From Hyphomicrobiales bacterium (GTDB lineage Bacteria; Pseudomonadota; Alphaproteobacteria; Rhizobiales; Rhizobiaceae), in the NCBI GenBank assembly GCA_900471515.1, contig UCFC01000024.1:186001-250000 (forward strand): a stretch of 64,000 bases of DNA. Reading direction: 5' to 3'. Below the pieces are notes generated by a model that saw only the letters and a program-made list of their open reading frames with translations, did not search any database and was not told the origin of the DNA. Shown piece by piece: positions 34,767 to 53,781 of the stretch; position 1 is the first letter of the stretch, and every line of letters begins with the position of its first letter. The translations under genes were made by a program, and so were the position numbers.

Positions 34767-35336
34767 TCAGTCCTTGGCGCGCTCGACGTAGGAATTGTCT
34801 TCGGTCGCGATGACAACGCGCGTGCCGGCGTCGATATGGGGCGGAACCGAGGTGCGGATGCCGTTGGAGAGGATCGCTGGCTTGTAGGAAGAGGAAGCCG
34901 TCTGGCCCTTTACGACCGGCTCGGTCTCGACGATCTCGAGGGTCACGTGGCGCGGCAGTTCGAGAGCGAGCGGGACGCCTTCGTGGATCGACAGGATGCA
35001 GGTCATGCCTTCCTGGAGATAGGCCTTCTGGTCGCCCATGGTTTCCTCGCTGACGACCACCTGGTCGTAGGTCGCGGGGTTCATGAAGTGGAAGCCTTCA
35101 CCATCCTCATAGAGGTACTGGAAGTTGACGTCTTCGACGAAGGCGCGCTCGACCTGCTCGGTCGTGCGCCAGCGTTCGGAAACCTTCACGCCGTCGACGA
35201 TGCGGCGCATGTCGACCTGCGTGACCGGCGTGCCCTTGCCCGGGTGGAAATTCTGGGCGGTGAGAACGACGTAGAGCTTGCCGTCGACATCGAGAACGTT
35301 GCCCTTGCGGACCGAAGAGGCGATGATCTTGACCAT
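34767..35336 (-). CDS. efp: Elongation factor P
   Basis: Relieves ribosome stalling at polyproline stretches. The 189-residue protein has the three-domain EF-P layout; domain I carries NFHPGKGTP with Lys34 at the tip, the residue that receives beta-lysine. The C-terminal signature is [22 protein letters not shown]. The lysylation enzymes epmA and epmB are encoded divergently 150 bp away, so Lys34 is very likely modified. It has its own terminator. Confidence 0.97.
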
Positions 35337-35486: not shown

Positions 35487-36551
35487 ATGAACCTTACAAG
35501 CACCAAAGCGTCTCCCTGGTGGACGCCATCAGTGCATTCCGATCGCCGCCCGTTCCTCATCGGGCGCAACGCGATCCAGGCGGCATTGCGCGGTTATTTC
35601 GCTCGTGAGGACTTCGTCGAGGTCGATACCGCCACGCTGCAGATCTCGCCGGGCAACGAGGCCCACCTGCACGCCTTTGCTACGGAGGCGCTCACGACCG
35701 ACGGACAGGCCGCAGCCTTCTACCTGCATACGTCGCCGGAATTTGCATGCAAGAAGCTGCTGGCGGCCGGCGAGCAGCGCATTGCCTGTTTTGCGCATGT
35801 CTACCGCAACCGCGAGCGCGGGCCGCTGCACCATCCCGAGTTCACGATGCTCGAATGGTATCGGGCAGGCGAGAGCTATGAGAGCCTGATGATGGACTGC
35901 GTGCGTATGCTGGCGCTCGCCGCTGAAACGGTAAAGACGGCGAAACTCACCTATCGCGGCGCCGAGTGCGATCCCTTTGCGGGGCCGGAGCGGCTGAGCG
36001 TCGCGGAAGCCTTCGGCCGCCATGCCGGTATCGATCTTCTGGCTTCGGTTGGTGCCGACGGCTCGACGGATCGCGAACATCTGGCCGCAGAAATGCGGCG
36101 GGCGGGCATGCGGGTTGCCGATGACGATCATTGGGCCGATCTCTTCAGCCGGGTCCTTGTGGAAAAGGTCGAGCCGCATCTCGGCTTCGGTCGCGTTACC
36201 ATTCTCGACGAATACCCGGTTTCGGAAGCCGCCCTTGCGCGGCCTTCGGCAGGCGATCGGCGGGTAGCGGAACGCTTCGAGCTCTATGCCTGCGGGGTCG
36301 AGCTTGCCAACGGCTTCGGGGAACTGACCGATGCTGCCGAGCAGCGGCGGCGTTTCCAGATCGAGATGGCCGAGAAGATGCGGGTCTATGGCGAGACCTA
36401 TCCGCTCGATGAGGATTTTCTGGCAGCACTCTCGGTCATGCCCGAGGCAAGCGGTATCGCGCTCGGTTTCGACCGGCTGGTGATGCTGGCGACAGGAGCC
36501 TCGCGGATCGATCAGGTGCTCTGGGCGCCTGTCGCGGAGTATGGCCGATGA
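35487..36551 (+). CDS. epmA: EF-P--(R)-beta-lysine ligase
   Basis: A LysRS-like class II enzyme without the anticodon-binding domain, which attaches beta-lysine to EF-P Lys34. The 354-residue protein shows motif 2 (YRNRERGPLHHPEFTMLEWYRA) and motif 3 (SGIALGFDRLVML). The stop overlaps the start of epmB by 4 bp (ATGA), and efp lies divergently upstream. The N-terminal 12 residues precede the conserved RPFLIGRNAI and may be shorter in vivo. Confidence 0.95.
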   Translation: MNLTSTKASPWWTPSVHSDRRPFLIGRNAIQAALRGYFAREDFVEVDTATLQISPGNEAHLHAFATEALTTDGQAAAFYLHTSPEFACKKLLAAGEQRIACFAHVYRNRERGPLHHPEFTMLEWYRAGESYESLMMDCVRMLALAAETVKTAKLTYRGAECDPFAGPERLSVAEAFGRHAGIDLLASVGADGSTDREHLAAEMRRAGMRVADDDHWADLFSRVLVEKVEPHLGFGRVTILDEYPVSEAALARPSAGDRRVAERFELYACGVELANGFGELTDAAEQRRRFQIEMAEKMRVYGETYPLDEDFLAALSVMPEASGIALGFDRLVMLATGASRIDQVLWAPVAEYGR

Positions 36552-37600
36552 ATGTCATGCGTCCTCTCAAGAGCGTCGACGATCTCGTCAGGACAGGCCT
36601 GATCGATGAGGCCGAGCGGCTGGCGCTCGAGGAGGTCGCTGCGCGCTATGCCATCGCGCTGACGCCCGCGATGGCACGGTTGATCGATCATGCCGATCCG
36701 GCCGATCCGATTGCGCGGCAGTTCGTGCCCGATACGGCGGAGCTTGTCACAAGGCCCGAGGAGCGGTCCGATCCCATCGGGGACCATGCCCACAGTCCGG
36801 TGGAGGGTATCGTCCATCGTTATCCGGACCGCGTATTGCTGAAGGCCGTGCATGTCTGCCCGGTCTATTGCCGCTTCTGTTTCCGGCGCGAGATGGTGGG
36901 GCCGCAGGGGCTCGGCACGCTCGATCCCGCGGCCCTGTCGGCGGCCTTCGACTATATCCGTCGCCACGGTGAAATCTGGGAGGTGATCCTGACCGGCGGC
37001 GATCCGCTGGTGCTTTCGCCGCGCCGTCTCGGCGAAATTCTGAGCGAGCTTGCAGCGATCGAGCATGTGAAGATCGTGCGCTTCCATACACGCGTGCCCG
37101 TCGTCGATCCGCAGAAGATCGATGCGGATCTGGTCGCGGCGCTGAAAGCAAGCGGCAAGACCGTCTATGTTGCGCTTCACGCCAATCATCCGCGCGAGTT
37201 GACGGCGGAAGCGCGCGCCGCCTGCGCCCGGCTCGTCGATGCCGGCATCGTCATGGTCAGCCAGTCGGTCCTGCTCAAGGGTGTCAACGATGATGCCGAT
37301 GTGCTGGCGGAATTGATGCGGGCCTTCGTTGAGACGCGGGTGAAACCTTATTATCTGCACCATCCGGATCTTGCGCCCGGCACCAGCCATTTCCGGCTGT
37401 CGATAGAGGAGGGGCAGACGATCGTCGCCGCGCTTCGCGGCCGTATCTCCGGCCTCTGCCAGCCTACCTACATCCTGGATATTCCCGGCGGCTACGGCAA
37501 GGCCGTGATCGGCCAAAGCGCCCTGAAGGCGACCGGCGAGGGTTGCTACTCGGTCTCGGACTATCGCGGAGGCGAGCATTCTTATCCGCCGGCCGGTTAA
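36548..37600 (+). CDS. epmB: EF-P lysine 2,3-aminomutase
   Basis: A radical SAM, PLP-dependent aminomutase that converts lysine to (R)-beta-lysine for EpmA. The 350-residue protein has the cluster motif Cys104-x3-Cys108-x2-Cys111 (CPVYCRFC), ILTGGDPL for SAM binding, and a C-terminal IPGGYGKAVIG that carries the likely PLP Lys. It overlaps epmA by 4 bp. The EpmC hydroxylase found in some gammaproteobacteria is not present here. Confidence 0.95.
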   Translation: MNVMRPLKSVDDLVRTGLIDEAERLALEEVAARYAIALTPAMARLIDHADPADPIARQFVPDTAELVTRPEERSDPIGDHAHSPVEGIVHRYPDRVLLKAVHVCPVYCRFCFRREMVGPQGLGTLDPAALSAAFDYIRRHGEIWEVILTGGDPLVLSPRRLGEILSELAAIEHVKIVRFHTRVPVVDPQKIDADLVAALKASGKTVYVALHANHPRELTAEARAACARLVDAGIVMVSQSVLLKGVNDDADVLAELMRAFVETRVKPYYLHHPDLAPGTSHFRLSIEEGQTIVAALRGRISGLCQPTYILDIPGGYGKAVIGQSALKATGEGCYSVSDYRGGEHSYPPAG

Positions 37601-37864: not shown

Positions 37865-38116
37865 ATGAACAAGACAATCCGCGACCTCGTAGCCAAGTTC
37901 GGTAAGCTTCCTGTACCCGTCGATCAGGTTGCCGACGATGCGGATCTCTACGCTGCGGGCCTGACGTCCTTCGCCTCGGTGCAGCTCATGCTCGGCATCG
38001 AAGAAGCATTCGACATCGAATTTCCAGACAATCTCCTGAACCGCAAGTCTTTCGCGAGCATCTCGGCGATTGCCAAGACGGTCGATCTCATTCGGGATAG
38101 CCGAAAGGTCGCCTGA
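37865..38116 (+). CDS. Stand-alone acyl/aminoacyl carrier protein
   Basis: An 83-residue carrier protein. The phosphopantetheine site is Ser35 in DLYAAGLTSFASVQLMLGIE, in place of the DSL of fatty-acid ACP. The rest is a four-helix ACP pattern ending FASISAIAKTVDLI. Its neighbour two genes on is an amino acid:carrier protein ligase, so it is most likely charged with an amino acid. GGAG at 37853 with an 8-nt spacer sets the ATG at 37865. Its stop overlaps the next start by one base. A phosphopantetheinyl transferase is not in the window. Confidence 0.92.
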   Translation: MNKTIRDLVAKFGKLPVPVDQVADDADLYAAGLTSFASVQLMLGIEEAFDIEFPDNLLNRKSFASISAIAKTVDLIRDSRKVA

Positions 38117-39297
38117 TGAACGTCCCGGTCAAAATCACGGAAGACAGCCTGGTCGCAAGGGCTGCCCGCGTCGCCGAAATTGCGGCAAGACATGCGGATG
38201 CCGTCGATTTCGAAGGCCGGTTCCCGCAAGAGGCCGTCAACGCGATGAAGGCCGAGCGCCTGCTCGGCATCCAGATTCCGCGCCATCTCGGCGGCGAGGC
38301 CGCTTCCACGACCGATATTGCCGAATTGTGCTCGATGCTCGGCCAGGCCTGCGCGGCAAGCGCGATGGTCTTCGCCATGCACCAGATCAAGCTTTCGAGC
38401 CTCGTCGAACACGGCGCCGACAGCGAGTGGCATAGCGCCTTCATGCGCCGCATCGTTGCCGAACAGCTGCTGATCGCTTCCGCCACCACCGAGGGCGGGA
38501 TCGGCGGCAACCTGCGCAACAGCATCTGCGCCATCGAAATCGACGGCGACATCTGCCGGCTGCAAAAGGATGCGACCGTCATTTCCTACGGTTCGCACGC
38601 CGATGCCATTCTCATCACTTCGCGCAGCCATCCGCAGGCGGCTTCGTCCGATCAGGTGCTGACTGCTTTCCTGAAGGATCAGTATACGCTCGAAAAGACG
38701 CATGTCTGGAACACGCTCGGCATGCGCGGCACCTGCTCCGATGGCTTTCTCTTCAGGGGCGAGGCGCCGGCCAAACAGATTCTGCCGAAACCCTTCGCGG
38801 AAATCGCCGCGCAATCGATGCTCGCCTCCTCGCACCTTCTCTGGAGCGGTGTCTGGTACGGCATCGCGGTCGATGCCGTTTCCCGTGCGCAGGCCTTCGT
38901 GCGCGCTGCCGCCCGCAAGTCTCCCGACGCCACGCCGCCCGGCGCGCTTCGTCTTGCGGAGGTCTCCAACCTTCTGCAGATGGTGAAATCGAATGTGGTT
39001 GCCGGCCTCAAGGCCTATGAAGAGGCAAAGGCGGACGGCGATAAGCTCTCCTCAATGGGCTTTGCCGTGGCGATGAACAACGTCAAGATTGCCTCTTCGG
39101 AAACGATCCTCGAGATCGTCAATCATGCCATGCTGATCTGCGGCATCATGGGCTACAAGAACGGCACGCCCTTCAGCCTCGGACGCCATCTGCGCGACGC
39201 TCATTCCGCGCAGCTCATGATTTCGAACGACCGCATCCTCGGCAACACGTCGAGCATGCTTCTTGTCCATAAGCAGGACACTAGCCTACTGGGGTAA
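38116..39297 (+). CDS. Acyl-CoA dehydrogenase-like flavoprotein
   Basis: A 393-residue protein with the acyl-CoA dehydrogenase fold: N-terminal helices, a middle beta domain ([18 protein letters not shown] ... [29 protein letters not shown]) and a C-terminal four-helix domain. Between a carrier protein and an aminoacyl-CP ligase, the natural substrate may be an amino acid bound to the carrier protein rather than acyl-CoA, as for the prolyl-S-PCP oxidases. I cannot identify the catalytic base with confidence. It overlaps the carrier protein gene by one base, showing tight coupling. Confidence 0.88.
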
Positions 39298-39301
39298 AGC
39301 C

Positions 39302-40210
39302 ATGGATATGCAGACATCGTTTCTGGACCGGCTCTTCGAGTCCGGCCTGCTGATCGATACCGGCGTTGACGGCCTTTATGGCCGCAGCGGCCAGTTCGAA
39401 GACGTTATTGCCGCCTTCGAGCGGTTGATCGACACGTTCGGCGGCGCAGACGGCGCCGAGGCGATGCGCTTTCCGCCCGGCATGAACCGCGCGCTTTTCG
39501 AAAAGAGCGGCTACATGAAGAGCTTCCCGCAGCTTGCCGGTACGGTACACAGCTTCTGCGGCAGCGAACTCGACCACATGAGCCTGCTGCAATGCATGGA
39601 AGTCGGCGACGATTGGACCAAGGGCCAGGAAGCGACGGATATCGTGCTGACGCCGGCCGCCTGCTATCCGCTCTATCCGACAGTTGCCAAACGCGGCAAC
39701 CTGCCGGCCAAGGGTGGTCTTTTCGACCTGCAGTCCTATTGCTTCCGCCATGAGCCTTCCAAGGATCCTGCCCGCCAGCAGCTCTTCCGCATGCGCGAAT
39801 ATGTCTGCATGGGCACCGAGCAGCATGTGACCGATTTCCGCCAGAGCTGGATGGACCGCGGCGTCGAAATGATGAAACAGGTCGGTCTCGATGTGACGAT
39901 CGACGTTGCCAACGACCCGTTCTTCGGACGCGCCGGCAAGATGATGGTCAACAACCAGCGCGACCAGAACCTGAAGTTCGAACTGCTGATCCCGATCACA
40001 TCTGCGGCAAAGCCGACGGCCTGCATGAGCTTCAACTATCATCAGGACTCGTTCGGCCTGAAGTGGGGCCTGAACCTTGAAGACGGCAGCGTGGCCCATA
40101 CGGCCTGCGTCGGTTTCGGCCTCGAGCGTATCGCGCTCGCCCTGTTCCACACCCACGGCCTCGACGTGAAGGAATGGCCTGCAAGCGTGCGGAAAGTGCT
40201 GTGGGGCTGA
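39302..40210 (+). CDS. Amino acid:[carrier protein] ligase (SerRS-like)
   Basis: A 302-residue class II synthetase catalytic core without a tRNA-binding domain. The fold is that of atypical archaeal-type Ser[11 protein letters not shown] with Cys121, motif 2 in [22 protein letters not shown] with Glu166, and motif 3 in [15 protein letters not shown] with Cys269. The Cys-Glu-Cys triad is the zinc site of this group. Characterised homologues from Bradyrhizobium and Agrobacterium load glycine or alanine onto a neighbouring carrier protein. I start at ATG 39302; the longer reading overlaps the previous gene. Amino acid choice here cannot be read. Confidence 0.92.
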
Positions 40211-40218
40211 GCGGTTCC

Positions 40219-41181
40219 ATGACGTCGGTCTTCGCGGGTATCGATCCCGATACCTACAAGACGCATGCGCTGCATTCGGGCGAGCGCATGTGGCCGGAGA
40301 CCAATTGTTATATCGATCTCTGGATCGAGGTGCTCTCGACCTTCGGCGTTGCGCCGGAGGCCATGCTCGGCTTCACGCTGACGCAGGATTTCGAAGGCGA
40401 CCAGTTCACCTTCTTCAAGGTGCCGCTCGAAGATCTCGAAGCGCTTTACGGCATCCGCGCCACCGAGCTTGCGATCTATGACCGTGTCGAACGGCATGTC
40501 GAGGTGCAGATCGCCCGCGGCCGGCTCTGCCTGATCGAGATGGATTCCTTCTACATGCCGGATACGCGCGGCACGGCCTATCGGCAGGAACACGGCAAGA
40601 CCACAGTTGCGATCAACCGGCTGGATTTTGCCGGCAAGCGCGTCGATTATTTCCACAATGCGGGCTATTTCCGCATCGAGGGCGAGGATTTCGACGGGCT
40701 GTTCCAGACTCATCTGACGGATGAGGATGCGCCGTTCCTGCCCTATACGGAATTCGCCAAGTTTCCGGAACGTCCGGCTGGCGAAGCGCATCTGCGCGCG
40801 GTTTCCCGACGGCTGCTCAGTTTCCATTTCGGCCGCCGTCCGAGGGCGAATCCGATCCGTGCCTTCGCAGAGGTTTTTCCGCTGCAGGTCGAAGCGGTGG
40901 CCGACCGCCCCTTCGGCTTCTTCCACAAGTACGCTTTCAACACGTTGCGGCAGGTGGGCGCGAATTTCGAGCTTGCCGCCGATCACCTCGCCTGGCTTTC
41001 TGCCGGCGAATTTGGTGCCGCGGTCGAGGAAGCGCGTCGAATCTCGGAAGCGGCGAAGTCGGTTCAGTTCCAGCTTGCCCGCGCCGTCACCCGCCGCAAG
41101 TTCGAGCCGCTGAAGGCTGCTCTTGATCCGGCCGCCGATGCGTGGGATTCGATGATGGCTTCGCTTGCGGAGCGACTCTGA
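40219..41181 (+). CDS. DUF1839 family protein
   Basis: A 320-residue cytoplasmic protein of the DUF1839 family, which as far as I know occurs next to aminoacyl-CP ligases. Seen features are WPETNCYIDLWIEVLSTFG, FEGDQFTFFKVPLEDLEALYGI, LIEMDSFYMPDTRGTAY and NRLDFAGKRVDYFHNAGYF, suggesting a papain- or transglutaminase-like fold with Cys/His, but I cannot prove catalytic residues. It begins 9 bp after the ligase gene. A role in taking the aminoacyl group from the carrier protein is plausible but unproven. Confidence 0.82.
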   Translation: MTSVFAGIDPDTYKTHALHSGERMWPETNCYIDLWIEVLSTFGVAPEAMLGFTLTQDFEGDQFTFFKVPLEDLEALYGIRATELAIYDRVERHVEVQIARGRLCLIEMDSFYMPDTRGTAYRQEHGKTTVAINRLDFAGKRVDYFHNAGYFRIEGEDFDGLFQTHLTDEDAPFLPYTEFAKFPERPAGEAHLRAVSRRLLSFHFGRRPRANPIRAFAEVFPLQVEAVADRPFGFFHKYAFNTLRQVGANFELAADHLAWLSAGEFGAAVEEARRISEAAKSVQFQLARAVTRRKFEPLKAALDPAADAWDSMMASLAERL

Positions 41182-41197
41182 CGCCGGAGATCTGACC

Positions 41198-43672
41198 ATG
41201 CGGGGGCGGTTGGCAAGCATCGGGGCTGAGGAAAGCCTGCTTTCCGAAGGCTGGAATCTGGTTCTGACCGAGCCTGACGCCTGCGCGACCCCCCACGATA
41301 TCCATCTTTCCGCACAGTTCATTCCGGCGCCCGTCCCGGGCACTGTCGCAGCCGCGCTCGAAAGAGCCGGTCTCTTTGACCGCGAAAATCCGCAGGCATT
41401 GAACACCAGGGATGCCTGGTATCTGACCCGCCTCTTCGACGCGGAGCCGGGCGAGGCGATCCTGCGCCTCCAGGGGCTTGCGACGGTTTGCCATGTCTTC
41501 CTGAACGGCCAGGAGATCCTGTTTTCCGAGAGCATGTTCACGGCCCATGAGATGCCGGTGACGTTGACAGGCGGTGATGAGCTGGCGCTTTGCTTCCGGG
41601 CTCTCGGCCCCCGTCTGGCGGAACCCGGGCCGCGTGCGCGCTGGCGGCCGCAAATGATCACGCCCCAAGGGCTGAAGAACGTGCGCAACACGTTGCTCGG
41701 CCACATGCCCGGCTGGTGCCCGGAAATCCACGCAGTCGGCCCATGGCGGCCGATTTCGCTGGTGCGCCGGGGCGCGGCCTCGGTCGATAACGTCGCGGTA
41801 CGCGCCGTGCTGGAGGAAAACGGCACGGGGCGGCTCAGCGTCTCGCTTTACACAGCCGGTGAAGAGCCTGTCATGCTGCTGCGCTGTGCCGGCGCTGAGC
41901 AGGGTTTCGAAAAGATCGGCGACCGGCACTATTCGGCGATCCTCAAATTGCCTGACGTCGAGACATGGTGGCCGCACACGCATGGCGCACCGCGTCTCTA
42001 CGACGTGACGCTCGTTCTGGACGGTGAAGAACATTCGCTCGGCAAGACAGGCTTCCGGCGGATCGAGGTCGACCATGGCGCGGATGGCAATGATTTCGCG
42101 CTTGTCGTCAACGGCGAGCGGGTCTTCTGCCGCGGCGCCGTCTGGACGACGGCCGATATCGTAAGGCTGCCGGGCGAACGGGCCGATTACGAGCCCTTCC
42201 TGCGGCTGGCCGCCGAGGCTGGAATGAACATGATCCGCGTCGGCGGTACCATGGCCTATGAGACGCCTGAATTTTTCGCGCTCTGCGACGAACTCGGGCT
42301 GATGGTCTGGCAGGACTTCATGTTCGCCAATTTCGACTATCCGAAGAATGACAAGACTTTCATCGGCCATGTTCATGCCGAGGTGGAAGAGTTCCTGCAC
42401 GGCGTACAGCTTTCACCTTCGCTTGCGGTTCTCTGCGGCGGCAGCGAAATGCACCAGCAGGCGGCGATGTTCGGGCTGCCCGCGGATTTCTGGAGCGGAC
42501 CGATCACCGACGAGATCATCCCCGCGATCTGCCAGCGCATGCGGCCCGATGCGCCCTATGTGCCGAATTCACCCTATGGCGGGGCCATGCCCTTCTCGCC
42601 CAATGCCGGCGTGACGCACTATTATGGCGTCGGCGCCTATATGCGGCCGCTCGGCGATGCGCGGCGCGCTGACGTGCGCTTTGCGGCCGAAAGCCTCGCT
42701 TTCGCTCACGTGCCGCAGCAAAGGACCCTGCAGCGGCATCTCGACGTACCCTCTGTTCACAGTCCGCTCTGGAAGGAGCGGGTGCCGCGCGACCGCGGCG
42801 CTTCGTGGGATTTCGAGGATGTCAGAGATTTTTATCTCGGCCTTCTCTACGATGTCGATCCGGCCAGGCTGCGCCGCGAAGACCCCGAACGCTATCTTGA
42901 GCTTTCGCGCGCCGTGACCGGCGAGGTGCTCGAGGAAACGTTTGCCGAATGGCGGCGCAAGGGATCGTCCTGCAACGGCGCACTCGTCTGGACCCTGCAG
43001 GATCTGCTGCCAGGTCCAGGCTGGGGCGTGATCGATTCCACCGGCGAGCCGAAGCCCGTCTGGCATGCCATGCGCCGCGCCTTCCGCCCTGTGCAGGTTA
43101 TCTTCACGGATGAGGGAACAAACGGCCTCTACGCACATGTCATAAACGAAACCGACAAGGTCGTTGCTCTCGAACTCGATGTCGCGTGCCTGCGCGACGG
43201 GCGGCAGCAGGTCGCGAGCGGCAGCAAGGCCTTCAATCTGGAACCCAGAAGCACCGAGCGTATCGCCTGCACCGATCTCTTCGGCGGCTTTTTCGATGCG
43301 GCCTATGCCTTCCGCTTCGGGGCGCCCTCGCATGATGTCAGCGTTGCCTGGCTGCGCTCGACGATAGATGGCGCGTTACTCGCACAAGCTTTCCATTTTC
43401 CGCGCGGCCGGGCCGAAGCGTTCCACGAGGCGACGATCGAGGCATCCTTCATGCGAGAGGGCGACGATTGGTTCGTCACGCTTGCGACCGACAGGCTCGC
43501 CCAATCGGTGCATATCGACGTTGAAGGCTATCGAGCGGAAGAGGACTGGTTCCATCTGGCGCCAGGTCCATCCAAGCGGGTGAGGCTGATCGCGGCTGCA
43601 GGCATCGACGGCGATGCGTTGCCGGCGGGCGAAATCAGGAGCGTCGGCGCGTCGCGCCGTTTCGCGCTTTAA
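41198..43672 (+). CDS. Glycoside hydrolase family 2-like protein (beta-mannosidase type)
   Basis: An 824-residue multidomain protein: jelly-roll sugar-binding domain (about 20-190, with LNTRDAWYLTRLF), immunoglobulin-like domain, TIM barrel (from about 305, RVFCRGAVWTTADIVR ... GMNMIRVGGTMAYE), and C-terminal beta domains. The usual NNE acid/base motif reads LCGGSEMHQQ, keeping Glu, and a candidate nucleophile is Glu in RFAAESLAF. No signal peptide is present, so it acts in the cytoplasm. GGAG lies 8 nt before the ATG at 41198. In this cluster it may trim or remodel a glycan intermediate. Confidence 0.85.
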   Translation: MRGRLASIGAEESLLSEGWNLVLTEPDACATPHDIHLSAQFIPAPVPGTVAAALERAGLFDRENPQALNTRDAWYLTRLFDAEPGEAILRLQGLATVCHVFLNGQEILFSESMFTAHEMPVTLTGGDELALCFRALGPRLAEPGPRARWRPQMITPQGLKNVRNTLLGHMPGWCPEIHAVGPWRPISLVRRGAASVDNVAVRAVLEENGTGRLSVSLYTAGEEPVMLLRCAGAEQGFEKIGDRHYSAILKLPDVETWWPHTHGAPRLYDVTLVLDGEEHSLGKTGFRRIEVDHGADGNDFALVVNGERVFCRGAVWTTADIVRLPGERADYEPFLRLAAEAGMNMIRVGGTMAYETPEFFALCDELGLMVWQDFMFANFDYPKNDKTFIGHVHAEVEEFLHGVQLSPSLAVLCGGSEMHQQAAMFGLPADFWSGPITDEIIPAICQRMRPDAPYVPNSPYGGAMPFSPNAGVTHYYGVGAYMRPLGDARRADVRFAAESLAFAHVPQQRTLQRHLDVPSVHSPLWKERVPRDRGASWDFEDVRDFYLGLLYDVDPARLRREDPERYLELSRAVTGEVLEETFAEWRRKGSSCNGALVWTLQDLLPGPGWGVIDSTGEPKPVWHAMRRAFRPVQVIFTDEGTNGLYAHVINETDKVVALELDVACLRDGRQQVASGSKAFNLEPRSTERIACTDLFGGFFDAAYAFRFGAPSHDVSVAWLRSTIDGALLAQAFHFPRGRAEAFHEATIEASFMREGDDWFVTLATDRLAQSVHIDVEGYRAEEDWFHLAPGPSKRVRLIAAAGIDGDALPAGEIRSVGASRRFAL

Positions 43673-43688
43673 GGTCTGGAGAACGGCA

Positions 43689-44897
43689 ATGACCATCAGG
43701 GTGCAGGCGGAAGAAGCTTTGCGGGGCGTCTATCGGAGCGTGCGCGGGCATCTGCTGCAGCGGCTCATTGTGAGGTCGCGGCTCGCTTTCAATCCGCGCC
43801 GGCCGGTGGAGATCGTCGGCTATCTGTCGATGGCAGCCGGCGTCGGGGAATCGGCAAGGCTTTGCGCGGCCGCGCTTTCGCATGCGGGCCGGGAAATCAT
43901 GCTTGCCGATGTCAGCACGCATCCGGACGAAGGCAAGCTGGTGGAGTGGGCGTTCGCCCACGTCTCCGGCGGCCAGCCGGGAAGCCGCATATGGCATCTC
44001 AATCCGCCCATGCTGCCGCGGGCGATCCTGAAGAAAGGCCTCGGCAATTTTGCCCGCGCCTTCAATATCGGTTACTGGGCCTGGGAGCTCGAGGTGGTGC
44101 CGGCGGAATGGCGCAATGCCATGCATTACATGAATGCCGTCTTCGTTCCCTCAGAGTTCACCCGGCGGGCAATCGCGCCGCATACGACAGCACCTGTCAT
44201 CGTCGTGCCGCATCCGGTGAGCGAGCGGCCGGCGGCTGACGGGACCAGGCAGAAATTCGGGATCGCCGAGGATGCTTTCCTCGTATCGTTCATCTTCAGT
44301 GCCGGCTCCTCGATCAACCGCAAGAACCCGCAGGCGGCGATCGAGGCCTTCAGGCTTTTCAGCGCCGAATGCCCCAATGCCTTCCTGCTGATGAAGGCCA
44401 GTGGCCATCCTGACCGCGATGAGGCGCTTCGGGCGCTCGTGCAGTCCGTGGAAGGCGACCGCAACATCAGGATCGTCACCGACAATCTGGCAAGTTCGGA
44501 GATCAACGGCATTCTTCGCGATTCCAACGCCTATCTCTCGCTGCACCGTTCCGAGGGCTTCGGCCTGACGGTGGCCGAAGCGATCATGCACCGCACGCCC
44601 GTCGTATCGACCGGATGGTCCGGCACGGCCGATTTTTGCGATCCCGACAATACCTGGCTGGTCGAGCCGGCGCTCATTCCCGTCGTCGACAGCCATCCGG
44701 AATTTGCCGATCTCAAGGACGCCGTTTGGGCCGATCCCTCGCCGAGGGCAGCTGCGGCCCATCTGAGGAACATCCATTCCGATCCTGATGCCGCACGGCG
44801 GAAGGCGGAGGGAGCGCGGGCCTATCTGATACGTCATCTCGCCGAGCACAGCTACGACAAGGCGCTTTCAAGGCTTTCGGCGATGCAGGCGAGCTAA
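43689..44897 (+). CDS. Glycosyltransferase, GT4-like
   Basis: A 402-residue GT-B protein. The N-terminal half has PVEIVGYLSMAAGVGESARL and IGYWAWELEVVPAEW; the C-terminal nucleotide-sugar half has FSAGSSINRKNPQAAIEAF and the HRSEGFGLTVAEAIMHRTPVV motif with the two Glu of GT4 enzymes (about 300-320). Donor and acceptor are unknown. It begins 16 bp after the GH2 gene, with GGAG 8 nt upstream of the ATG at 43689. It probably extends the glycan exported by the next gene product. Confidence 0.9.
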   Translation: MTIRVQAEEALRGVYRSVRGHLLQRLIVRSRLAFNPRRPVEIVGYLSMAAGVGESARLCAAALSHAGREIMLADVSTHPDEGKLVEWAFAHVSGGQPGSRIWHLNPPMLPRAILKKGLGNFARAFNIGYWAWELEVVPAEWRNAMHYMNAVFVPSEFTRRAIAPHTTAPVIVVPHPVSERPAADGTRQKFGIAEDAFLVSFIFSAGSSINRKNPQAAIEAFRLFSAECPNAFLLMKASGHPDRDEALRALVQSVEGDRNIRIVTDNLASSEINGILRDSNAYLSLHRSEGFGLTVAEAIMHRTPVVSTGWSGTADFCDPDNTWLVEPALIPVVDSHPEFADLKDAVWADPSPRAAAAHLRNIHSDPDAARRKAEGARAYLIRHLAEHSYDKALSRLSAMQAS

Positions 44898-44985
44898 GCC
44901 GGGGCCTCACTCCCCTTTATTTTAATATTTCCACTCTAGAGATGGCTTGTTTTCGGCCGCGATGCGGCCCCCAGCGGATGGACGG

Positions 44986-47900
44986 ATGTCGAAGGGCATT
45001 ATCGCAAACTCAGTGATGAATGCGGCAGCGGGCATGTTGCTTCTGATAACGGGGTTCGTGTCCTCGATCATAACCGCGCGCCTGCTCGGACCTGAGGCCA
45101 ACGGTATCGTCGCCTTCTCGCTCTGGCTCGTCGTCACCGGCGCCTCGATTGCCGAACTCGGCTCCAGCATCACGCTTCTGAAGACGCTACCGCAGCTCTC
45201 GGCGCAGGGCTACAGCCTCGATCAGCGGAGGGGCTTCGCCTCGATCCTGGTCACGTTCATGGTCTGCTCCACGCTGGTCTTGCTTGGGCTTTATGCCCTG
45301 TTCTTCCTGACATCGGAGGAAATGCACTGGGCCGATACCGCCCCCTCGGTGGCGCTTGTGACGGGCGTCCTCTTCTTCATTCAGGCAATCGGCTCTTTCG
45401 TCAAGTTCTACCTCATCGGTGAAAAGCGGCTCGGCACTTTCTTCCAGCTGACGCTGATCGTCTCGGTTTTCCAGCTTGCGGGCGTGGCCGTCGGTGCGGT
45501 CTTCTACGGGGTCGAGGGTGTGCTCGTCGGTTATGCGCTCGGCCAGCTCGTGCTTTTCGTCGCCACGCTGCCCATTCTCCTTGCCCGGCGCGATCGTTGC
45601 GGCGTTTCCCTCAAATACCTGGCCTCGTCTTCGGTAATCCTGTCGATGCAATTCATCATCGATTCGATCTTCCTCAACCGTATCGAGCTGCTTTTTCTGC
45701 AGCAGTTCTGGTCCGTGGAAATGGTCGGCTTCTATGCCGCGGGCCTGTCGATTGCCAATATCGCGCTGCAGCTTCCGATCCAGATGAGCGGCAGCCTGCT
45801 GCCCTATTATTCGGAACGGCGGCATACCAGCGCCGATCTGAAATTCCCGGTCGAAGCCTTTGCCGCCGTCATCCGCAGCATGGCCTATATCGTGCTGCCC
45901 ATGAGCCTCGGCCTTGCGGCGATCTCCGGCCAACTGGTGCATGTGGTCTTCGGCGAAGCTTTCGACCGAAGCGGCGGCGTTGTCGCCCTGCTTGCGCTCG
46001 TCGCACCGGCCTATACGTTCATGCAGGTTCTCAGCCTATACCTGCTTTCCATCGAGAAGGCCAATGTGCGGTTGAAAATCAGTGTGATAGGTGGCCTCCT
46101 GATGGTAGTGGGTTGTTTACTCATCGTACCTAGTCTGGCTGCCGAGGGTGCCGCGCTCGTGCGCATAGCCGTATTTGTTGCGATGTCGGTAATGATGGTC
46201 AGACAAACGGGCTTCGGAACTCAGCTTTCCGGCCTATATCTCAGCCTTGCGAAGATTTTTGTCGCCGCTCTATTCTGCGCTTGCGGCGCTATTGCTGCGC
46301 TCGAGCTTGCGCAGGGGCCGATCGGTCTTGTCGCGGCGATCGTCGCCGGCACGTTCGCCTATTTTGCTGCGCTGAAAGTCCTTCGTGCCGTTCCGGCCGA
46401 AGACATCCACGTGCTGCGCTCGATCCTCGACAAGATGCCCGCGCTGTTGCAGGGACCGGCAAGGCGCGCGGTCAATTTCATCACCCCGTCGCCAGAAGGG
46501 GAAGAGAAGAAGCCGCTCAACGAAGAATTCTCGCGCGAGCCCGCAGAAGGCGCCGGCCGCGCGGCCGCTCTTCCTGTTGTCTTCGACGGGACGATCGGCC
46601 TCTTCATGCCGGAAAAGGCTGGCGTGGCGAAACGTTCGGCTGCCGTTCTCTTCGTCAGCCCCTGGGGTTTCGAGGAAATGTGCACACGGAAATTCTATCG
46701 TGTGGCAGCCGAGCATTTTTCCGACATTGGCGTGCCGAGCCTGCGTTTCGACTATACGGGCACGGGTGACGCGCTCGATTTCGGCGACGAGACACCCAGC
46801 CTTGCAATCTGGAAGAATTGCATTGGCGCGGCCGCCGCGCGGCTGAAGGCGCTCAGCGGTTGCTCGCAGGTCATTCTTGTCGGCCAGGGTCTCGGCGGCA
46901 CGCTTGCCCACCTGACCGGCCATGAGATCGAGGGCGTCGACAGCATCGTTCTGCTCGCGCCGGTTCTGAGCGGCAGAGGCCATCTGCGCGAAATCAACAT
47001 GTGGTCGCGGATCATCCATGCCGACCTCGGTCTCGGCAAGGAGCATGCGCCGAGCGCCCAGGTCCAGATCGCGGGCCTGACCCTGCCGGACACGATCGCA
47101 GCGGAAATCGGCAAGCTCAACATCAGCTCGCCGCAGGGCCTGGGAGCGCCGAACTACCTCATCCTCGAACGCCCGGTTCGGGCCGACGACACGGCCTTCG
47201 CCGATGCCCTGAAGGCGCTTGGCGGCAATGTCGAGCAGCGCGTCTTCGAAGGTTACGACGAGCTGGTCACCAACCCGCTCTTTGCCAAGACGCCGATGGC
47301 GGTCGTCAAATTGCTCAGCGAATGGCTCGTCGAAACGACGACGCTTGCAGCGTCTGCCGGGCACTCGGCCCAGGCGATCGAAAACCCGCCGCTCGTCGGT
47401 GACGGCTTTGAGGAAATCCCCGTTCGTTTCGGCGCTTTCCAGCATCTCATCGGTGTCGTCAGCCGGCCTCGGGGCGAGATCAAGGGCAATGCCGTGCTCT
47501 TCATGTCGACGGCCTATGACCGGCATGCCGGTTGGGGTCGCACGACCGTCGATATGGCGCGTGAGCTTGCGCGTCAGGGCGTCGTTTCCCTGCGTTTCGA
47601 TTCCGCCAATGTCGGCGACAGCGTTCCGCGCCCGGATGCGCCCGAACAAGTTCTCTATTCCGCGACGCAGACGGAAGATGCGCTCGCCTCGCTCGATCTC
47701 CTGGAAAGCTTCGTGGCCGGACCGATCATGGTTGCGGGCCGCTGCAGCGGCGGTTATGTGGCGCTGCGCGCAGGCATCGAGGATGAGCGGCTGAAGGCGA
47801 TCGTTTCCATCAATCCCTTCGTCTACTACTGGGACCCCGAGATGCCGGTGCGGCGCGAGCATGTCGTCTCCGTCCCGCGAAGCGTCGACGATTACGGCCA

Positions 47901-48294
47901 GCGGATGATGCGGCTCGACACGGTCAAGCGGCTGTTCCGTGGCGAGGTCGATGTGATCGCAGCCCTGCAGAATATCTTCATTGCAGTCGGGCGCCGGCTG
48001 TCGCCGCGTATTGCGCCGCTCGTCGAGCTTATCCCGGGCCGCCGCCACGTCGCACGCCAGGTGCGCCAGTCTTTCGCGGTGCTCGGCAGACGCAAGGTGC
48101 CGCTGACGCTGATCTACAGCGAAGGCGATGTCGGCCTCGACCACATGTACTTCCATTTCGGTCCACGCGGTCACAAGTTTGCCCGGCATCCGAATGTGCG
48201 GCTGGTGATGCTGCAGGACGCCGATCACAACCTGACGCCGCCGGAATCGCGCAAGCTGGTGCTGGACGAGATCGTCCGGCTGGCGAAGGCCTGA
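44986..48294 (+). CDS. Polysaccharide flippase fused to tandem alpha/beta-hydrolase domains
   Basis: A 1102-residue fusion. Residues 1 to about 485 are a Wzx/MATE-like oligosaccharide flippase with about 14 helices (NSVMNAAAGMLLLITGFV ... ARLLGPEANGIVAF). After a charged linker come two alpha/beta-hydrolase domains, about 525-790 and 810-1102. Both have the LRFDYTGTGDA / LRFDSANVGDS strand-loop. The first nucleophile elbow reads GQGLG, with Gly instead of Ser; the second reads GRCSG, with Cys at the nucleophile position. The second domain keeps DADHN for the catalytic His. ATG 44986 is the best start; others at 44947 and 44962 lack ribosome-binding sites. Confidence 0.88.
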   Translation: MSKGIIANSVMNAAAGMLLLITGFVSSIITARLLGPEANGIVAFSLWLVVTGASIAELGSSITLLKTLPQLSAQGYSLDQRRGFASILVTFMVCSTLVLLGLYALFFLTSEEMHWADTAPSVALVTGVLFFIQAIGSFVKFYLIGEKRLGTFFQLTLIVSVFQLAGVAVGAVFYGVEGVLVGYALGQLVLFVATLPILLARRDRCGVSLKYLASSSVILSMQFIIDSIFLNRIELLFLQQFWSVEMVGFYAAGLSIANIALQLPIQMSGSLLPYYSERRHTSADLKFPVEAFAAVIRSMAYIVLPMSLGLAAISGQLVHVVFGEAFDRSGGVVALLALVAPAYTFMQVLSLYLLSIEKANVRLKISVIGGLLMVVGCLLIVPSLAAEGAALVRIAVFVAMSVMMVRQTGFGTQLSGLYLSLAKIFVAALFCACGAIAALELAQGPIGLVAAIVAGTFAYFAALKVLRAVPAEDIHVLRSILDKMPALLQGPARRAVNFITPSPEGEEKKPLNEEFSREPAEGAGRAAALPVVFDGTIGLFMPEKAGVAKRSAAVLFVSPWGFEEMCTRKFYRVAAEHFSDIGVPSLRFDYTGTGDALDFGDETPSLAIWKNCIGAAAARLKALSGCSQVILVGQGLGGTLAHLTGHEIEGVDSIVLLAPVLSGRGHLREINMWSRIIHADLGLGKEHAPSAQVQIAGLTLPDTIAAEIGKLNISSPQGLGAPNYLILERPVRADDTAFADALKALGGNVEQRVFEGYDELVTNPLFAKTPMAVVKLLSEWLVETTTLAASAGHSAQAIENPPLVGDGFEEIPVRFGAFQHLIGVVSRPRGEIKGNAVLFMSTAYDRHAGWGRTTVDMARELARQGVVSLRFDSANVGDSVPRPDAPEQVLYSATQTEDALASLDLLESFVAGPIMVAGRCSGGYVALRAGIEDERLKAIVSINPFVYYWDPEMPVRREHVVSVPRSVDDYGQRMMRLDTVKRLFRGEVDVIAALQNIFIAVGRRLSPRIAPLVELIPGRRHVARQVRQSFAVLGRRKVPLTLIYSEGDVGLDHMYFHFGPRGHKFARHPNVRLVMLQDADHNLTPPESRKLVLDEIVRLAKA

Positions 48295-50996: not shown

Positions 50997-52403
50997 ATGC
51001 CCGGCGCTTTCGTCTCGACCGACCGCATCCGTTCGCTCTTCACGGAAGCCATGTCGCAGATGTACCGGACGGAAGTGCCGCAATACGGAACGCTGATCGA
51101 GCTTGTGGGGGAGGTCAACGCCGAAGTCCTCGCGAAAGACCAGGAACTCAGCGAGCGACTTCGGCGTGCAGGCGAACTCGAGCGCATCGATGTCGAGCGC
51201 CATGGCGCAATCCGTCTTGGAACGGCCGCAGAGCTTTTCACTATCCGCCGCCTCTTTGCCGTGATGGGCATGCGGCCGGTCGGCTATTACGACCTCTCGG
51301 TGGCCGGCGTCCCCGTGCATTCCACCTGCTTCAGGCCGGTCGAGGAAGCGGCGCTGAACGTCAATCCGTTCCGTGTCTTCACCTCGCTTCTGCGGCTGGA
51401 GCTGATCGAGGATCAGGCGTTGCGGGCAGAAGCCGCGGCCATTCTCGGCAAGCGGCAGATCTACACGCCGCGCGCCATCGCCCTCATCGAGCAGTATGAG
51501 AAGGCCGGCGGGCTGACGGAGGCGGAGGCGACGGAATTCGTCGCCGAGGCACTGGAAACCTTCCGCTGGCATGGTGCGGCGACCGTTAGCGCCGAGACTT
51601 ACAAACGCCTGCATGATGCGCATCGCCTCATCGCCGATGTCGTCAGCTTCAAAGGGCCGCATATCAACCACCTGACGCCCCGCACGCTCGATATCGACGA
51701 GGTGCAGCGGCGCATGCCGGAACGCGGCATTACGCCCAAGGCCGTCATCGAAGGCCCGCCGCGGCGCAATTGCGATATCCTGCTGCGGCAGACGAGCTTC
51801 AAGGCTCTGGAAGAGCCGATCGCTTTTTCCGGCGCGACCGGGACAACATCAGGCACGCATACCGCCCGTTTCGGCGAAATCGAACAACGTGGCGTGGCAC
51901 TGACGGCCAGGGGCCGGGCGCTCTACGACCAGTTGCTTGCCTCGGTGCGCGGCGAAGTGCAGGTCGGCGCATCCGGTGCCAAGGCCGGCGATTACGATGC
52001 CGAGCTTGCCGAACGGTTCAAGGCGCTGCCGGACAGCTGGGGGGACCTCAGGCGCGAAGGGCTTGCCTTCTTCCGCTATTCGGCCACGCCCCAAGGCATC
52101 GCAGCAAAGGGGCAGCTGCCATCCGATCCGGACGTCCTGATTGCCAGGGGTTATCTGCGTTTCGATCCTATCGTCTACGAGGATTTCCTGCCGGTCAGCG
52201 CGGCCGGTATCTTCCAGTCGAATCTCGGCACGGACCAGCAGCAGAATTACGCGACGCGCTCCAACCGCGCCGCCTTCGAGGCAGCGCTTGGGGCCGACGT
52301 GCAGGACGAACTCGCGCTCTATGGCGCGCTGCAAGCCGCCTCGCTTGAAACGGCGATGGAAGAGCTTGGCCTTTCCGGCCCGAAGCTGAAGACCGTGGCC
52401 TGA
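50997..52403 (+). CDS. hglS: 2-oxoadipate dioxygenase/decarboxylase (DUF1338, HglS)
   Basis: A non-haem Fe(II) enzyme that turns 2-oxoadipate into D-2-hydroxyglutarate in lysine catabolism. The 468-residue VOC-fold protein has candidate metal ligands His69 (ERHGAIRLGT, with substrate-binding Arg73), His225 (GPHINHLTPR) and Glu294 (ARFGEIEQRG), matching the pattern of the characterised Pseudomonas enzyme. The gene leads an operon with an FAD oxidase and amaB, the other steps from pipecolate to 2-aminoadipate. The aminotransferase that makes 2-oxoadipate is not in the window. Confidence 0.92.
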   Translation: MPGAFVSTDRIRSLFTEAMSQMYRTEVPQYGTLIELVGEVNAEVLAKDQELSERLRRAGELERIDVERHGAIRLGTAAELFTIRRLFAVMGMRPVGYYDLSVAGVPVHSTCFRPVEEAALNVNPFRVFTSLLRLELIEDQALRAEAAAILGKRQIYTPRAIALIEQYEKAGGLTEAEATEFVAEALETFRWHGAATVSAETYKRLHDAHRLIADVVSFKGPHINHLTPRTLDIDEVQRRMPERGITPKAVIEGPPRRNCDILLRQTSFKALEEPIAFSGATGTTSGTHTARFGEIEQRGVALTARGRALYDQLLASVRGEVQVGASGAKAGDYDAELAERFKALPDSWGDLRREGLAFFRYSATPQGIAAKGQLPSDPDVLIARGYLRFDPIVYEDFLPVSAAGIFQSNLGTDQQQNYATRSNRAAFEAALGADVQDELALYGALQAASLETAMEELGLSGPKLKTVA

Positions 52404-52472
52404 TATTTGGCCGCTTCCGCCGGTGCGGGAGCGGCGTTAGAGTGCCGAATTCGATCCTGACTGGACTGTCCG

Positions 52473-53756
52473 ATGCTCAATGATCCGCGCTCCCACGGCC
52501 TGTGGGAAAAGACCGCTCCTCAGCCGCCGCGTACATCCGCGCTGGAAGGCGTTGCAGAGGCCGATGTCGTCATCGTCGGCGGTGGCTATACCGGCCTTTC
52601 CTCGGGGCTGCACCTGGCGCAGGCCGGATCGCGGGTCGTGCTGCTCGAAGCCAAGGAAATCGGCTTCGGCGGAGCCGGTCGCAATGTCGGCCTCATCAAT
52701 GCCGGCATGTGGGTCATGCCCGACGATTTGCCGGGTGTTCTTGGTCCTGTTTATGGCGAACGACTGCTCGACCTGCTCGGCAACGCGCCACGGCTGGTGA
52801 TGGACCTGATCGAAAAGCACGGTATCGCCTGCGAGCTGGAGAAGCAGGGCACGCTGCATTGCGCGGTTGGCGCCGATGGGCTGAAGGAAGTCGAGGAGCG
52901 TTACAAGCAGTGGTCGGCGCGGGGCGCGCCGGTCACGCTTCTGGATGCGAACGAGACGGCAAAGCGTATCGGCACGAATGCCTATGCCGGGTCGCTGCTC
53001 GACATGCGGGCCGGCACGCTGCAGCCGCTGGCCTATGCGCGCGGGCTTGCCCATGCCGCGCAGAAGGCGGGCGTCGTGCTGCACACCGCAAGCCCCGTCA
53101 TTGCAACCGAGCGGCAAGGCAGCCGCTGGGTGGTGAAGACGGCGCGCGGACAGGTGAGCGCCGACTGGATTGTCGTGGCGACCGATGCCTACAGCACCGG
53201 CCCCTGGGAGCTGGTGCGCAACGAACAGGTATTCCTGCCCTATTTCAACTTCGCCACCGTGCCGCTCGGCCACAATCTGCGCCGGTCGATCCTGCCCAAT
53301 CGCGAAGGCGTGTGGGACACGAAGGAAATCCTTTCCTCCTTCCGCATGGATCAGGCGGGCCGGCTCGTCTTCGGCAGTGTCGGGGCGCTGCGCAATACCG
53401 GCCTTTCCGTGCACAAGGGCTGGGCCAAACGCGCGCTGAAGCGGCTCTTTCCCGAGATCGGCGATGTCGATTTCGAATGCGAGTGGTACGGGCAGATCGG
53501 CATGACCGACAATGCCCTGCCGCGCTTCCACAAATTCGCGCCCAACGTCATCGGGTTTTCGGGCTATAATGGCCGCGGGATCGCGCCCGGCACGGTATTC
53601 GGCCGCACTTTGGCGCAGCATATTCTTGGCCACATGGCCGAGGCGGATCTGCCCTTGCCGCTGACCGACCCCCGTGAGCCGAGCTTCCGCGGGCTTAAGG
53701 AATTGTGGTACGAAGCCGGCGCTCAGGTCGCCCATTTCGCCGATGCCCGTTTCTGA
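52473..53756 (+). CDS. FAD-dependent oxidoreductase, probable L-pipecolate oxidase
   Basis: A 427-residue DAO-family flavoprotein. The dinucleotide motif GGGYTG is at 36-41 (VVIVGGGYTGLSSGLHLA), a second FAD contact is AGRNVGLINAGMW, and the C-terminal motif is FSGYNGRGIAPGTVFGR. Between hglS and amaB, the expected role is oxidation of L-pipecolate to piperideine-6-carboxylate, as for AmaA. Other amino acid substrates such as N-methylated or gamma-glutamylated compounds cannot be excluded from sequence alone. A gap of 69 bp separates it from hglS. Confidence 0.85.
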   Translation: MLNDPRSHGLWEKTAPQPPRTSALEGVAEADVVIVGGGYTGLSSGLHLAQAGSRVVLLEAKEIGFGGAGRNVGLINAGMWVMPDDLPGVLGPVYGERLLDLLGNAPRLVMDLIEKHGIACELEKQGTLHCAVGADGLKEVEERYKQWSARGAPVTLLDANETAKRIGTNAYAGSLLDMRAGTLQPLAYARGLAHAAQKAGVVLHTASPVIATERQGSRWVVKTARGQVSADWIVVATDAYSTGPWELVRNEQVFLPYFNFATVPLGHNLRRSILPNREGVWDTKEILSSFRMDQAGRLVFGSVGALRNTGLSVHKGWAKRALKRLFPEIGDVDFECEWYGQIGMTDNALPRFHKFAPNVIGFSGYNGRGIAPGTVFGRTLAQHILGHMAEADLPLPLTDPREPSFRGLKELWYEAGAQVAHFADARF

Positions 53757-53781
53757 GAACAACAAGACTGGAACCAAGACA

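Follow-up and report, generated by a model that had tools for sequence, protein, structure and literature searches.

A conserved five-gene cassette of Rhizobium and other proteobacteria as a candidate system for carrier-dependent amide synthesis

What does a bacterium make with a carrier protein, a stand-alone ligase for charging it, and a protein of unassigned function, DUF1839, that are encoded in a row with a flavoenzyme and a glycosidase? The question is raised by positions 37865-48294 of a stretch of 64,000 nucleotides from a Rhizobium genome (contig UCFC01000024.1, positions 186,001 to 250,000; called the window below), where seven genes follow one another on the plus strand with short gaps or overlaps (Table 1). 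A preliminary description of this DNA had taken the seven genes as one pathway, in which an amino acid is loaded on the carrier protein, oxidised there, moved to a glycan by DUF1839 or by hydrolase domains and flipped across the membrane. Family-model and structure-sequence matches bear out all seven genes with the families that it had named. The conserved unit is smaller than that, a five-gene cassette that is often accompanied by a tandem hydrolase. By analogy, we lean slightly towards the view that this cassette is a counterpart of the lincosamide synthetase, assembled from different components.

Matches to the ligase and to DUF1839 were sought in 297 genomes of the order. The ligase exceeded its curated cut-off in 70 genomes, and DUF1839 was present in 52, all of them within those 70. 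Loci were then compared using profiles grown from the window proteins. Besides the window, the comparison took in stretches of at most 20 kb around the ligase match in 74 other genomes (the ligase matched in 77 genomes, two of which, the partial weak matches in G047 and G044, were left out). The genes for the carrier, the flavoenzyme, the ligase, DUF1839 and a glycoside hydrolase of family 2 (GH2) stand in the same order on one strand in all 52 DUF1839 genomes, and the constant linkage of GH2 that had been put forward as a check on gene order is therefore found at every DUF1839 locus. With order and strand of the first five genes unchanged throughout, the seven-gene arrangement is not a product of chance. 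The gap of 16 bases between DUF1839 and GH2 (41181-41198) contains no terminator-like site; there are 9 such sites in the whole stretch against a shuffle mean of 10.2, which is no excess.

Profile searches of 16 further stretches recovered the same five-gene arrangement, on one strand, in 15. Of these, nine come from outside the order: from Azospirillum, Caballeronia, Mycetohabitans, Cupriavidus, Burkholderia and, in four cases, from a single other family of the phylum. The remaining stretch (L244) carries a second DUF1839 copy only, and the operon of the same genome is in L243. Annotated records of Azospirillum lipoferum, Caballeronia sp. M1242, Mycetohabitans rhizoxinica and the R. leguminosarum Vaf10 plasmid have all five genes in a row, with an annotated alpha/beta hydrolase next in the row in Azospirillum and Mycetohabitans. 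A named genome collection yielded 548 DUF1839 relatives, 80 of which were taken as named Rhizobium loci (their titles are all Rhizobium or Rhizobiales). The core is complete in 78 of these, and in the two exceptions, L160 and L189, the contig is short or cut. One of them, the 6.4-kb contig L160 of Rhizobium leguminosarum Vaf-46, has DUF1839 without a carrier, flavoenzyme or ligase recognised by the profiles, despite 4.5 kb of upstream sequence. DUF1839 was also matched in 20 of 397 genomes of the phylum and in 59 plasmid records.

The preliminary description had the ligase charge the carrier, and the resemblance of both proteins to a solved ligase-carrier complex (4h2w) supports this prediction. 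The window carrier is identical to the carrier chain of 4h2w at 63 of 83 aligned residues and matches Atu2571 (2jq4) with an E-value of 2.3e-37; its pantetheine serine, S38 in the open reading frame (ORF) numbered from 37856, is kept in all 69 aligned carriers, that of the window included. The ligase belongs to the family NF005479 (523.6 bits over residues 12-315, curated cut-off 357) and matches the Bll0957 structures with E-values of 3.6e-95 and 6.5e-100, the closest being the ligase chain of 4h2w. Residues C134, E179 and C282, which we take to be the Cys, Glu and Cys zinc ligands of the family, are kept in 70 of 70 ligases. Bll0957 and Atu2573, reportedly characterised as amino acid:carrier protein ligases by Mocibob in 2010 and 2013, belong to the same family as the window ligase, and the window carrier belongs to the Atu2571 type.

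A FastTree phylogeny of 90 ligases and the printed stretch of Bll0957, rooted on five weak relatives, separates two clades. All 67 DUF1839-linked ligases, including that of the window, fall into one of them (type I, support 0.83), whereas 18 unlinked ligases group with the structurally studied Bll0957 in the other (type II, support 0.91). Type II loci contain the flavoenzyme and lack DUF1839 and GH2, and the carrier is on the opposite strand in 16 of the 18. Since Bll0957 belongs to the clade without DUF1839, results obtained with it are not simply transferable to the window. Five more distant ligase relatives (L139-L143, in genomes G052, G309, G271, G251 and G113; 150.8-163.8 bits) share a neighbour cluster of their own, whose member in L141 is a DltB-like MBOAT protein (TIGR04091, 179.7 bits, below cut-off), together with ORFs of no family. 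A pattern search beside these five ligases gave no convincing carrier protein. They possibly represent a route to D-alanylation-type glycan modification that uses an enzyme like the aminoacyl-tRNA synthetases (aaRS).

A pointer to the transfer step comes from the predicted fold of DUF1839. The model, built from an alignment of 49 of the 52 proteins (L097, which is split in two, L071 and L082 were left out), has a mean predicted local distance difference test score (pLDDT) of 92.4. Its top 14 structural matches are all CcbD, CtaG or AziU3/U2, with Z-scores of 15.8-18.9 over 272-287 residues. The best is CcbD (18.9 over 284 residues), followed by CtaG (17.9) and AziU3 (17.7); the next row drops to 8.0, and papain-like proteases stay below 7 among the 50 structural matches listed. 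CtaG and AziU3/U2, presumably enzymes of closthioamide and azinomycin biosynthesis, respectively, thus share the predicted fold of DUF1839 while differing in their substrates. In its overall fold the model matches the carrier-dependent papain-fold amide synthases, which speaks for DUF1839, one of the two candidates of the preliminary description, as the transfer enzyme.

Residue conservation was counted over 146 distinct DUF1839 rows (151 rows minus repeats of one assembly). C45 is present in 143, T144 in 143 and H161 in all 146; by order, not by geometry, they fit a triad C45-T144-H161 that matches the C(T/S)H order reported for the family, and T143 adjoins T144. C45 is the expected catalytic cysteine, with Cys19 as its presumed counterpart in CcbD. 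In the region of the C-terminal long helix, R303 (145/146), Q298 (142/146), R307 (138/146) and K295 (137/146) are conserved, and by position these four appear to resemble the carrier-docking residues of CcbD, as estimated by numbering offset. Three operon copies have Arg or Gln in place of the cysteine: L227:14732-15712, from Cupriavidus metallidurans CH34, and L246:7901-8878 and L243:7935-8918, from two genomes of one genus, probably also Cupriavidus, with the same arrangement. Each is matched by an intact second copy with the full residue set, found within L227 and L246 and, for L243, on another contig (L244). An intact paralogue in the genome of each Cys-less copy is what would be expected if a cell can do with a single cysteine-bearing copy but not without one, and the two copies may form an active-inactive pair.

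The flavoenzyme has the fold of acyl-CoA dehydrogenases by sequence and lacks the catalytic glutamate that goes with membership in that family. The glutamate position of the short- and medium-chain acyl-CoA dehydrogenases is occupied by I369, and that of isovaleryl-CoA dehydrogenase, whose placement is tentative, by S, A, T or C239; there is no carboxylate at either position in any of the 70 homologues. A separate alignment took in 53 of the 70 sequences. For lack of a carboxylate at these positions we rejected the candidate role of a plain desaturase. Invariant in the 70 homologues are H89, S157, H240, W243, W247 and N371, and a profile search brought up DnmZ (71.5 bits), KijD3 (70.0) and DszC (63.4), which represent the group D flavin monooxygenases and N-oxygenases. 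Because the active site is without the base of acyl-CoA dehydrogenases, oxygenation, possibly of an amine, would be likelier than desaturation, and plain desaturation appears unlikely. The probable substrate of the flavoenzyme is either the aminoacyl group on the carrier or the product; the earlier claim that the amino acid is oxidised on the carrier is weakened as far as it meant dehydrogenation.

GH2 retains both catalytic residues. E428 and E509 align with motifs of 2vjx that we take to be those of the acid/base and the nucleophile of GH2 beta-mannosidases, and both are Glu in 51 of the 52 proteins. No signal peptide is visible by eye in GH2.

The tandem hydrolase accompanies the cassette in 35 of the 52 loci, 19 times downstream on the same strand, 12 times downstream on the opposite strand and 4 times upstream. 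With both domains aligned together, the first domain has Gly or Arg at the nucleophile position and no Ser or Cys (35/35), while the second has a GxC motif with C933 (35/35 motifs) and D1061 and H1094 at a frequency of at least 94%; a separate alignment took in 33 of the 35 proteins. Judged by these residues, only the second domain keeps a catalytic triad. The two domains resemble exosortase-A-associated hydrolases 2 and 1 (hydr2 and hydr1) in all 33 members scanned, and the window protein misses the curated cut-offs of both (80.7 against 168.45 and 63.8 against 202.75); a fold search matched ordinary alpha/beta hydrolases and thioesterases and was uninformative. Of four loci around true hydr1 genes, two were scanned by family. 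Both encode a pyridoxal phosphate (PLP) decarboxylase beside hydr1, which is joined in one locus by an exosortase-type AMP-ligase and in the other by hydr2; no carrier protein was recognised by eye near the hydr1 genes. In view of the decarboxylases and the AMP-ligase, amino acid chemistry may be a theme common to the cassette and the hydr1/hydr2 loci. A genome of the same genus without a hydrolase at the cassette (L077) has a hydr1-like match in a 606-aa ORF elsewhere (G187:C109:72124-72927).

From gene content, linkage, conserved residues and predicted fold we infer the following course of events. The ligase would activate a small amino acid, for which analogy suggests glycine or alanine, and load it on the phosphopantetheine of the carrier. 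The flavoenzyme would modify the carrier-bound aminoacyl group or the product. DUF1839 would dock the carrier, take the aminoacyl group onto Cys45 and transfer it to an amino sugar, whose amine would thereby become part of an amide. GH2, of the retaining beta-mannosidase type, may release or trim a glycoside, either the acceptor or the product, and the hydrolase with its single Cys site may edit a mischarged carrier or remove an acyl group. In Rhizobium, where GT4 and the flippase are added, a surface glycan is the probable destination of the product. A more specific form of this proposal is put forward only tentatively: a synthetase with an aaRS-like ligase, in which an oxygenating flavoenzyme without the dehydrogenase base and an amide synthase with a rearranged triad would give an N-modified aminoacyl glycoside in alpha- and betaproteobacteria. 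The flavoenzyme would then oxygenate the nitrogen or a carbon of the carrier-bound aminoacyl group, and the genes would spread as a cassette, to which polysaccharide machinery became attached in some lineages only.

Several observations weigh against the synthetase proposal. The resemblance of DUF1839 to CcbD, CtaG and AziU3 is one of fold only, at 11-15% identity, and the 49-sequence DUF1839 profile did not pick up any chain of CcbD or CtaG, even at E-values as high as 10. The likeness of the docking helix is one of numbering offset only, and K295 and Q298 are replaced by Met and Glu in several betaproteobacterial copies. The triad is reported as C-(T/S)-H as opposed to Cys-His-Glu in CcbD, so the chemistry of DUF1839 may differ. 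In the profile search with the flavoenzyme, true dehydrogenases (up to 96.0 bits) outscore the monooxygenases. The cassette contains no gene for making an amino sugar, the putative acceptor, and the hydrolase was not found in 17 of the 52 loci, three of which have less than 5 kb examined downstream of GH2. Finally, no annotated polysaccharide gene stands beside the cassette in the Azospirillum, Caballeronia, Mycetohabitans and Vaf10 records, the gene tables of PLSDB being incomplete; a surface polysaccharide therefore need not be the target.

The last point bears equally on the view that the locus aminoacylates and exports a surface polysaccharide: a lipid-linked repeat unit would be aminoacylated and flipped, with GT4, flippase and hydrolases as integral parts. 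This is possible, and we regard it as doubtful. It agrees with the fusion of the flippase to the hydrolases, seen in the window and in 48 of the 80 named Rhizobium loci (GT4 is present in 32 of the 80), and with a 2010 prediction (PMC2922099) of ligation to a cell-surface sugar. Polysaccharide genes (Wzz, WcaJ, flippase, GT2, GT4-like) lie near 36 of 52 type I and 5 of 18 type II loci (Fisher p 0.005, uncorrected for kinship, on single-linkage clusters). The Mycetohabitans stretch, moreover, has an acyltransferase and a gene of the lipoteichoic acid (LTA) synthase family, and a weak GT4 piece (62 bits by profile) follows GH2 on the Vaf10 plasmid. Against the export view, among the 78 named Rhizobium loci whose core is complete, 27 show neither a GT4 nor a flippase nor a hydrolase of these types within the DNA examined, 16 of the 52 order-wide loci lack every counted polysaccharide cluster, and the four annotated records are without an annotated glycosyltransferase or flippase. 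Order-wide, the flippase-hydrolase fusion was found in 3 of 52 DUF1839 loci, all of the window's genus, and another flippase family in 8; the flippase and GT4 profiles grown from the window are narrow (5 and 4 loci), and the other genes were counted through single-linkage protein clusters, ten of which were annotated by family. Being inconstant in the order-wide, the named Rhizobium and the annotated outside loci, flippase and GT4 were rejected as members of the core, and the glycan export that had been placed at the centre of the pathway is not supported as a core feature. The glycan link is real but variable, and export is outside the core.

At the other end, the cassette could be a stand-alone pathway for a soluble N-oxidised aminoacyl glycoside, an antibiotic-, signal- or cofactor-like small molecule that GH2 releases or activates. 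The compactness of the cassette and its presence in plasmid records, with transposases on the same stretch of the R. leguminosarum Vaf10 plasmid, would suit this, as would the antibiotic enzymes among the closest folds of DUF1839 and the nitrososynthases DnmZ and KijD3 among the relatives of the flavoenzyme. We nevertheless consider it rather unlikely, given the enrichment of polysaccharide genes nearby and the nature of the plasmid records, 40 of 59 being predicted as non-mobilizable and several being chromosome-sized. Least probable, and in our opinion improbable, is that DUF1839 is a cysteine hydrolase, a deaminoacylase or peptidase, in a cassette that removes or recycles glycine from glycans. 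The papain-like superfamily is rich in peptidases and amidases, according to PMC10318531, and those GH2 relatives for which there is a structure are glycosidases; the presence of a dedicated pair of carrier and ligase fits synthesis better, however, and the nearest folds of DUF1839 are all biosynthetic, with papain-like proteases at the low Z-scores given above. On this evidence we retain a synthetase that joins a carrier-bound amino acid to an amino sugar as the preferred reading.

Table 1. Genes and domains of the seven-gene row in the window
Feature	Position	Strand	Matches and remarks
Carrier protein	37865..38116	+	PF00550; NF005480 124.4 bits (cut-off 72)
Flavoenzyme with acyl-CoA dehydrogenase fold	38116..39297	+	PF02771/PF00441; usual catalytic glutamates absent
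Amino acid:carrier protein ligase, class II aaRS-like, type I clade	39302..40210	+	NF005479
DUF1839, candidate papain-fold amide synthase	40174..41181 (start maybe 40219)	+	PF08893, E 4.3e-136
GH2 glycosidase, beta-mannosidase type	41198..43672	+	5n6u, 2vjx and other GH2 beta-mannosidases matched
GT4 glycosyltransferase	43689..44897 (alternative start 43614)	+	PF20706/PF00534; lineage addition
Flippase with two alpha/beta-hydrolase domains (fusion ORF)	44947/44962-48294	+	PF13440; TIGR03101 and TIGR03100 below cut-off
Flippase domain of the fusion (MOP/Wzx type)	44962..46446	+	about residues 6-500 (ORF numbered from 44947); PF13440 at residues 43-340
First alpha/beta-hydrolase domain (hydr2-like)	46552..47379 (border approximate)	+	TIGR03101 below cut-off; nucleophile replaced by Gly or Arg
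Second alpha/beta-hydrolase domain (hydr1-like)	47380..48294 (border approximate)	+	TIGR03100 below cut-off; Cys933-Asp1061-His1094

Directly upstream of the seven genes (35487-37600) are EpmA and a lysine-2,3-aminomutase-like gene (TIGR03822; under the EpmB cut-off), which form a separate theme. A 189-aa ORF on the minus strand (34767-35336) may encode EF-P, as a candidate only, and the overlapping ORF on the plus strand has no family. Downstream lie a GT4 gene on the opposite strand and, beyond it, a LysR regulator gene together with genes for catabolism and transport. Those at 50997-55320, encoding an HglS-like 2-oxoadipate dioxygenase, a DAO-type oxidase and an aldehyde dehydrogenase in a row beside the LysR regulator, probably serve lysine catabolism.

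Carrier-based aminoacylation of an envelope glycan is known from the dlt system of D-alanylation (DltA, DltC, DltB). The cassette differs from it in that no DltB-like gene was seen among the ten annotated neighbour clusters of type I loci. The overall idea of charging, modifying and amidating is already in print: in a note added in proof, Iyer, Maxwell, Burroughs and Aravind (2010; PMC2922099) treat a StRS-paralogue neighbourhood and propose that the ligase charges the carrier, that the redox enzyme modifies the aminoacyl group by monooxygenation and that Atu2574 amidates a surface amino sugar. According to the passages available to us, this neighbourhood likewise comprises a ligase, a carrier, a redox enzyme, a conserved ORF, a glycosidase and polysaccharide genes, and by position Atu2574 is DUF1839; BtrH-type papain-fold transacylases are treated there for another (MtRS) system. 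Those passages assign no fold to Atu2574, do not divide the ligases into two clades, mention no Cys-less copy and do not count core genes against extras. New relative to them are the CcbD-type fold, the absence of the dehydrogenase base, the two ligase clades, the copies without cysteine and the distinction between core and extras. The part of PMC10318531 that we consulted describes DUF1839 as papain-like with a C(T/S)H triad, guesses at glycan processing at the cell wall and has no mention of lincosamides or CtaG. The same part presents BtrH of butirosin biosynthesis as a papain-like acyl carrier protein:aminoglycoside acyltransferase, which by description is similar to DUF1839. No link between DUF1839 and CcbD was found among the literature matches listed, most subscription journals being outside their scope.

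The preferred reading would give a testable role to an enzyme of previously unassigned function. The link of the DUF1839 clade to a lincosamide-synthetase-like fold narrows the question to one reaction in vitro, of an aminoacyl-carrier, an amino sugar and DUF1839. If the reading is true, the range of carrier-dependent amide synthesis on amino sugars widens from Streptomyces antibiotics to proteobacteria, plant-associated ones among them, and the cassette may give genetic access to the amino acid substituents that bacterial glycans carry. The closest known parallel is the lincosamide synthetase (LmbC/CcbC, the carrier domain of LmbN/CcbZ, and LmbD/CcbD), which combines stand-alone activation, carrier loading and papain-fold amide formation with an amino sugar. 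As described in the passages of a 2025 review that we consulted (PMC12945683), CcbD moves carrier-bound proline via a cysteine thioester to the amine of a thiooctose, using a Cys-His-Glu triad and docking the carrier by Arg312, Arg316, Gln319, Arg323 and Arg324. DUF1839 shares the LmbD/CcbD-type fold in its model, with no sequence similarity detected; where lincosamides rely on an adenylation domain, the cassette has an aaRS-like ligase, and it differs further in a triad reported as C-(T/S)-H and in an extra flavoenzyme and GH2.

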